Source of the DNA: Methanothrix sp. | GTDB taxonomy: Archaea > Halobacteriota > Methanosarcinia > Methanotrichales > Methanotrichaceae | Direction of reading: 5' to 3' | Length of the DNA: 35,090 nucleotides | NCBI GenBank assembly: GCA_003162615.1 | Contig: PMNG01000174.1 | Coordinates: 1,458 to 36,547 of the forward strand | Shown: positions 12,371 through 13,929 of the stretch, one piece after another | Layout of the letters: each line of letters opens with the position of its first letter | Position numbering within the stretch: position 1 is the first letter of the stretch | The notes under the pieces: generated by a model | Told to the model about the DNA's origin: nothing | Databases searched by the model: none | What the model saw: the letters and a program-made list of their open reading frames with translations, nothing else | Program-made: the position numbers and the translations under genes

Positions 12371-13060
12371 TTAAGGCCCATCTTCTTCCTCTGAGTGCTT
12401 TTCTTCTCTCTTCCTTTGAAGCTCGTCCACGAACCCTGATGTCAGTATAGAGGTCGGAAGAGCGAAGGTGGCCACGCCCAGTATTATTATCAGTCCTCCG
12501 ATCACTTTCCCAAGCGGAGTCTCGGGATACACATTCATGCCGATTGTTGTCATAGTCAGCACTGCCCACCACATTGTAGCAGGAATGTTAGGGAAATTTT
12601 GAGGTTGAACGTCATGCTCCAGAAAGTAGATCGTAGTCGAGGACAGGACCATGAAGAAGATTATGGCAGTGAAGCTCATGGCCAGCTCGCGTTCCTGGGC
12701 TTTTATTACGTCTATTATGGTCTGAAGCGATTCAGAGTACCGATGGAGCTTGAGCAACCGTAAAGTCCAAAGCACCCGAAGACTGCGTAGAAACCTGTGA
12801 TCTGCTGCAAATGCAAGGTCCAGATAGAATGGCAGGATCACCATGAGATCTATTATTGCTAGAGGCGTCAGGCAGTACCTCAGCCTTCCCAAGACGGGAT
12901 TCCTATAATTGGGGTCCACATCGCAGGACCAGACGCGCAAAAAGTACTCGACGGTGAATACTATCAAGGAGACAGATGAGATGTAGTAGAAGATGTCTTT
13001 ATGCACGAGATAAAGGCTCTCCACCGTCTCCAGGACCACGGCAGCGACGTTTAGGACCAC
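12371..13060 (-). CDS. Voltage-gated potassium-channel-family ion transport protein with atypical selectivity filter
   Basis: S4-like RFLRSLRVLWTLRLLKLHR; pore region NIPATMWWAVLTMTTIGMNVYPETPLGK. Homology-like coding (YKLRVYEILEATDPEDKIAERVNIFLLAL) continues upstream of the GTG at 13060 to about 13195 without ATG/GTG/TTG, so the true start is uncertain. Confidence 0.8.
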   Translation of the reverse strand: MVLNVAAVVLETVESLYLVHKDIFYYISSVSLIVFTVEYFLRVWSCDVDPNYRNPVLGRLRYCLTPLAIIDLMVILPFYLDLAFAADHRFLRSLRVLWTLRLLKLHRYSESLQTIIDVIKAQERELAMSFTAIIFFMVLSSTTIYFLEHDVQPQNFPNIPATMWWAVLTMTTIGMNVYPETPLGKVIGGLIIILGVATFALPTSILTSGFVDELQRKREEKHSEEEDGP

Positions 13061-13209
13061 CAGGGCCAGAAGAAAGATGTTTACCCTCTCAGCTATCTTG
13101 TCCTCAGGGTCTGTAGCCTCCAGGATCTCGTATACCCGAAGCTTATAGCTTTTGCCATCTAATTTTGATGTATCTATCTTAATATATACGAACTTGCCCT
13201 CTTTTTATC

Positions 13210-13929
13210 ATGCGTGCCGCCTGCCTTCAGCTCAGTGTAGATCTCTGCCAACGCCAGGGGAACATTACTAGAGCGCTGAAGATGGCCGAACTTGCCATGG
13301 ATCGCGGCGCGGATATTCTAGTGTTCCCTGAGATGTTCATCACAAGCTTTTGCTATGATCAGATTCCAGAGGACCCGCCCTATCCCTCGCTGGACCCTTT
13401 CAGGGCCTTTGCACGGGATCACGACTGCCTGATCATCGGCTCTCTCATGGGCGGCAAGTACAACCTTGGCTTCTGCCTTGAGCCCGAAGGCATCCAGTTC
13501 CAGCCCAAGATCCATCCCTTCGACCAGGAGAGGCTGCACTTCTTAGGCGGCGGCCGTATCTCGCCCATGAATACGAAATGGGGCAAGGTGGGCCTTGAGA
13601 TCTGCTACGACCTGCGCTTTCCTGAGGTGGCTCGCTCCCTGGCGCGGCAGGGTGCCGACTTTCTGGTTACCATAGGTCAGTTCCCCGCCGCCCGGAGGAC
13701 GCACTGGCGCATCCTCTGCTTTGCTAGGGCCATCGAGAACCAGCTCCCCCACGTGGCCTGCAACTGGGCAAATGCTGGTGGCTCCCTGATCATCGATGCT
13801 CGCGGCCAGGTCCAGGCTGAAGCGAGCCAGAAGGAGGAGGTAATCTTCGCTGAAATTGATCTGGAGGAGCGAGACAAATGGAGAAAGGAGATTTTCTACC
13901 TGGGCGATAGAAGGCCGGAGATATACTGA
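13210..13929 (+). CDS. Carbon-nitrogen hydrolase (nitrilase superfamily)
   Basis: ILVFPEMF, FQPKIHPFDQ and VGLEICYDLRFPEVAR match the Glu-Lys-Cys triad contexts. Confidence 0.93.
   Translation: MRAACLQLSVDLCQRQGNITRALKMAELAMDRGADILVFPEMFITSFCYDQIPEDPPYPSLDPFRAFARDHDCLIIGSLMGGKYNLGFCLEPEGIQFQPKIHPFDQERLHFLGGGRISPMNTKWGKVGLEICYDLRFPEVARSLARQGADFLVTIGQFPAARRTHWRILCFARAIENQLPHVACNWANAGGSLIIDARGQVQAEASQKEEVIFAEIDLEERDKWRKEIFYLGDRRPEIY

Follow-up and report, generated by a model that had tools for sequence, protein, structure and literature searches.

The channel gene analysed here belongs to a clade of archaeal Kv-like channels whose selectivity filter is one residue short, and the loss of GYG, which an earlier note on this DNA had flagged as an oddity, is the normal state of that clade. 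The short-filter family is maintained by purifying selection; its members are functional proteins that carry a voltage sensor, and not products of decay. The gene lies in the window, by which we mean the whole stretch of 35,090 nucleotides from Methanothrix sp. that was analysed. A tblastn search of 100 related genomes, together with a scan of genome contigs, recovered orthologs from 14 further species within the family. These are 69-78% identical and all have the short filter, which brings the clade to 15 species including that of the window. We propose, with somewhat better than even confidence, that the protein is a cation channel that opens by voltage, discriminates poorly between cations and has acidic residues in a ring at the mouth of its filter, a reading that leans on sequence and on analogy with known pores.

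The subunit is encoded on the minus strand by an open frame of 277 codons, counted from stop to stop (12371-13204; ORF list and Pfam), whose translation includes PATMWWAVLTMTTIGMNVYPETPLGK; the part homologous to the orthologs starts at 13153 (K-S-Y-K-L-R). A Pfam scan of this ORF found Ion_trans (PF00520, 9.2e-30) and Ion_trans_2 (4.4e-8), and no further Pfam domain, thus no extra signalling domain. The protein ends about 25 residues past S6, and the members of the clade are small, at about 266 residues. The S4 voltage-sensor helix RFLRSLRVLWTLRLLKLHR (12740-12796, minus strand), placed by the KCNQ2 alignment and the conserved columns, shows KCNQ-like charge spacing, and its Arg/Lys residues are conserved together with the counter-charges, Glu in S2 and Asp in S3 (R123, R126, R132, R138, E69 and D102 in alignment A1). 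The S6 inner helix GKVIGGLIIILGVATFALPTSILTSGFVDEL (12419-12511, minus strand), also placed by conserved columns, is helix 213-257 of the predicted model. This model has the expected S1-S6 helices with a pLDDT of 80, and KCNQ and Kv channels are among its best fold matches in Foldseek; in a sequence search of the PDB, KCNQ2 came out best (1e-31), with other Kv channels also close. By domain, S4 and fold, the protein is a Kv-fold, six-helix, KCNQ-like subunit, and as it is without TxGY/FG it is not a demonstrated K+ channel. An MVP-type K+ channel as in Methanocaldococcus was also considered and rejected, since the score against the NCBIfam model K_channel_Meth (MVP-type, hyperpolarization-activated) is 37.4 bits, far below the curated cut-off of 300 bits.

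The selectivity filter of the window copy, TTIGMNVYP, lies at 12524-12550 on the minus strand (TTIGM at 12536-12550, Asn at 12533-12535) within the pore sequence MWWAVLTMTTIGMNVYPETPLGK; compared with TTVGYGDxYP, it lacks one residue. The KCNQ2 alignment runs straight through the pore and sets TTIGYGDKYP against TTIGM-NVYP, with one residue absent and GYG gone; the same one-residue gap appears against the GYGD paralogs. The filters seen across the clade are TTIGEN, TTVGEN, TTVGDN and TTIGTN, with TTIGMN in the window (consensus TT[VI]G-[D/E/T]-N-x-YP); G034 (L005) has TIGEN, for example, and G018 (L008, with its canonical tandem paralog at 641-1402) has TVGDN. At the ring position, 13 of the 15 members carry Asp or Glu, one carries Thr (genome G001), and the window copy carries Met (codon 12536-12538, minus strand), as the ortholog alignment shows. 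Only this Met and a lesion at the 5' end are private to the window genome. The earlier description of a Kv-like channel with a non-canonical filter one residue short thus agrees with Pfam, the KCNQ2 alignment and all 14 orthologs, and the possibility that the orthologs would all carry GYG failed, GYG being present in no ortholog of the short-filter clade. It is conceivable that a sequencing or assembly error altered the filter, as the Met is unique to the window genome and its codon is two bases away from the common Glu codon (GAG to ATG). But the one-residue-short register recurs in 14 independent genomes of other species and the reading frame runs unbroken to either side, so that such an error is rejected for the filter length and is, for the filter as a whole, very improbable.

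The short filter arose once. All short-filter genes fall in one clade of the tree with support of 100/100, and orthology is also supported by position: a divergently oriented carbon-nitrogen hydrolase gene of the nitrilase family (13210-13929, plus strand) flanks an ortholog too, and in the window and in both of the two relatives checked, a nitrilase-like gene and a primase small-subunit gene flank the channel gene. The nearest relatives within the family (L019, L020 and L021, from genomes G032, G009 and G026) carry the full-length filter TTIGYD[DE]IYP, in which the second Gly is replaced by Asp. The canonical TVGYGD proteins are placed outside these GYD[DE] relatives, the short-filter clade is sister of the TVGYGD paralogs, and the GYDD rows resolve into no single group. 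The route of origin plausibly led through a GYDD stage, as deletion of the Tyr and an Asp to Asn change would turn GYDD into GDN, with the order of the steps read from the sequences. The TTIGYD[DE]IYP channels are in themselves a second unusual filter type in the same family.

Between the window copy and its nearest ortholog, dN is 0.129 and dS 1.16; the ratio of about 0.11, similar to that of other ortholog pairs, means that the protein is kept by selection. By Tajima relative-rate tests the window copy has not evolved significantly faster (chi2 at most 3.3). It departs from five columns that are otherwise invariant, and other members show departures to match. A degenerate copy under relaxed selection is therefore rejected by dN/dS and relative rates, and only the 5' lesion is left of that idea. 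Early decay, one of the readings offered in the earlier note, thus fails for the filter, which is clade-wide and under purifying selection, and may still fit the window copy through its 5' lesion. The same note had also considered a non-conducting, sensor-like role. In such a reading, conduction through the pore is lost, and the protein serves as a voltage sensor or signalling subunit. TxGYG is indeed lost, and the Gly of the S6 PxG motif is replaced by Ser throughout the clade. But a dead pore should drift, and here no part of the protein is better conserved than the pore helix and filter (mean identity 0.93 vs 0.86 for the whole protein), with columns that are nearly invariant save the ring and two hydrophobic positions; the acidic residue at the mouth is retained in all but two members, and the extra domain that signalling might use was not found by Pfam. 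We regard a non-conducting pore as rather improbable. Altered ion selectivity is the best supported of the three readings, because the short filter is clade-wide, is under purifying selection and matches the TIGE/TVGD filters of non-selective CNG channels.

The frame, which had been described as open on both sides of the filter, is so around the filter itself, but at the 5' end of the window copy it is disturbed. Orthologs start with ATG GCC AAA AGC TAY AAG, except that L015 starts with GTG. The ATG that matches their start codon (13156-13158, minus strand) begins ATGGC-AAAAGC, one base short of ATGGCCAAAAGC in the relatives, and is in the wrong frame; the frame that it opens stops after 21 codons. 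The first ATG, GTG or TTG in the channel frame is a GTG in mid-S1 (13058-13060, minus strand), and a start there would drop the N-terminus and about half of S1. Further upstream, in a stretch that the upstream alignment shows to be conserved ahead of the orthologs, the TATA-box-like TATATATTA (13180-13188, minus strand) is a candidate promoter element. Behind the base missing after the start codon is a recent inactivation of the gene, an error in the assembly or an unusual mode of initiation, and with this base missing, expression of the window copy is doubtful. Judged from the ORF list, the rest of the genes in the window appear to be full length, which makes a generally poor assembly unlikely. 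We give slightly less than an even chance to the window copy being a recently broken gene, with a one-base deletion near the start, of an otherwise functional family. The absence of any start codon ahead of mid-S1 and the Met at the acidic ring position would fit this, as would the 3' remnant of a short-filter gene on contig 131 of genome G041, which means that gene loss occurs. However, dN/dS is low, the other 260 codons are intact and free of further lesions, and the cause may instead be a single-base assembly error or a species variant; a non-standard start is conceivable, as is, more speculatively, slippage on the run of A that follows the ATG. Even if true, a broken window copy leaves the filter unexplained.

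How could such a filter work? We propose the following for the poorly selective channel. The Kv/KCNQ-like six-helix subunit of this Methanotrichaceae-type clade would form homotetramers, and its filter was remodelled once, from TVGYGD, plausibly via GYD[DE], to T-[VI]-G-[D/E]-N through the loss of one residue. Loss of the Tyr-Gly pair would remove the two outer K+ sites (S1/S2) and leave the inner carbonyl sites of Thr, Val/Ile and Gly beneath a ring of four Asp or Glu side chains. Such a pore would open by voltage and would hardly distinguish Na+ from K+ in conduction; divalents may bind in it or pass through it. For the window copy, the Met ring predicts weaker divalent binding and a smaller inward current, if the protein is made at all. 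This expectation draws on CNGA channels, in which acidic side chains line the mouth and bind Ca2+, and neutralisation of the Glu cuts the inward current and weakens Ca2+ binding; their filter is TIGE (TVGD in human CNGA4), they are non-selective, and Na+ and K+ pass alike (PMC10761061). Cautions apply to this reading. Selectivity is hard to predict from a filter motif: HCN channels have CIGYG and yet are weakly selective (PMC7576140). A Na+ leak would be costly where a Na+ gradient sustains the cell, which speaks against a non-selective pore, and the Met and the 5' lesion of the window copy also count against the reading.

The closest known parallel is with metazoan CNG channels, which share with the clade a T-[VI]-G-[E/D] filter shorter than the K+ filter, an acidic ring and the 6TM tetramer plan; a TIGE/TVGD-type filter is found in 13 of the 15 clade members, with TIGM in the window copy. 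The clade filter is one residue short, whereas that of CNG channels is two residues short, and after the ring residue the clade has N-x-Y-P and CNG channels T-P-P-P; both differences count against a CNG-like pore. CNG channels also have a C-linker and a CNBD, the archaeal clade neither, and unlike CNG channels the clade is nearest to KCNQ/Kv in sequence and fold and keeps a Kv-type charged S4. In a tree built without CNG sequences, it nests within archaeal Kv-like channels, and the closest PDB sequences are KCNQ/Kv. A true CNG homolog is thus rejected. Since there is no cyclic-nucleotide domain and the remainder is Kv-like, the likeness of the filters is convergent, and the clade, although not made up of CNG channels, may function as their pores do. 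With KCNQ (Kv7) and other Kv channels, the clade shares the S4 charge spacing, the WW pore helix and the S6 motif ALP-x-x-IL-x-SGF; it differs in having no TxGYG, a Ser for the PAG-type Gly of S6, and no calmodulin-binding C-terminus. NaK of Bacillus cereus is likewise a K+-channel derivative with Asp/Glu at the Tyr position, and is non-selective, as is predicted for the clade. Of the four K+ sites, only S3/S4 are left in its filter, TVGDGN (PMC9822992), and the TVGD-N of most clade members resembles this filter minus the second Gly. Unlike the clade, NaK is a 2TM protein with a full-length filter, and the NaK2CNG chimeras derived from it are engineered. NirBac (e.g. TTGTD) and NaKTs (LPMGNGPLSP), which with NaK make up the known non-selective variants from prokaryotes, are natural relatives of K+ channels with replaced filters and non-selective conduction (PMC4607889, PMC5052707), but they are 2TM proteins of other families with other filters and few isolated members, whereas the clade comprises 15 species with a voltage sensor.

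The homomeric pore has to be weighed against the presence of a second channel gene. Directly downstream of the short-filter gene, on the same strand, 11 of the 15 species have a canonical TVGYGD paralog that shares about 46% identity with the query short-filter protein, and a mixed tetramer is therefore possible. The short-filter subunit may then be a modulatory partner that co-assembles with the tandem paralog, giving mixed filters and an altered conductance or gating; the voltage-sensor and pore architecture common to both paralogs would allow this. We consider such co-assembly unlikely, given the long independent evolution of the two partners in the tree and their identity of about 46%, and given that the window genome, G034, G024 and G001 have the short-filter gene without the tandem paralog. 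Indeed, G024, which is estimated to be 99% complete, has no other homolog at E<=1e-10 beyond its short-filter gene, which means that the short-filter protein can exist without a canonical partner. In G041, the 3' remnant (L063, contig 131, about 100-250) comprises the last ~43 codons of a short-filter gene, is 78% identical and sits directly upstream of a canonical TVGYGD paralog. This truncated copy shows that some lineages lose the short-filter gene.

How far does this filter extend? The pattern W..[LIVMF]TxTT[VI]G[DE]xxxP, broad enough to cover the CNGA pore as well, was found in 13 of 50 genomes of the family, all in the short-filter clade. It matched none of 146 cyanobacterial genomes, a limited survey that leaves absence elsewhere unproven, and in a viral collection it matched no channel, the five matches being an unrelated viral protein. 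When 394 genomes from the phylum were scanned with a strict filter pattern, the window was the single match; that sample was without most of the family carriers, and the pattern is too strict to speak for absence. A literature search, including Methanosaeta with K+ channel filter and necessarily incomplete in coverage, found no report of an archaeal short-filter clade.

According to a survey that covered Kv and CNBD channels of eukaryotes, strong filter deviations occur in single channels, and the TIGE of metazoan CNG channels is the sole exception at the level of a clade (PMC7576140). The archaeal clade shows the same kind of filter change, made once and kept in 15 species. The chances are evenly balanced that it is a second, independently evolved CNG-type short-filter clade (TIGE/TVGD plus N) that is archaeal and gated by voltage and not by ligand, that arose stepwise from GYGD through GYD[DE] to G[DE]N, that has a natural control in the tandem canonical paralog, and whose acidic ring was secondarily neutralised in two lineages (Met in the window, Thr in G001). 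The intermediate filter and the canonical tandem sister in the same family form a natural series in which to study how a K+ filter may turn non-selective, and proteins of this size suit expression and structure work. The clade also raises the question of why an aceticlastic methanogen would retain a possible Na+/K+ pore.

A separate observation concerns another voltage-sensor-like sequence in the window's own genome. In ORFs 1078-1854 and 480-1283 of L002 (G000 contig 45, about 38052-38357), an S1-S4 domain resembling a voltage sensor (Ion_trans positions 7-102, 9e-13) seems to be continuous, through an N gap, with a Mg2+ transporter domain of the CorA type (2.5e-22), possibly as a voltage-sensor/CorA fusion, or as two genes joined at a scaffold gap.
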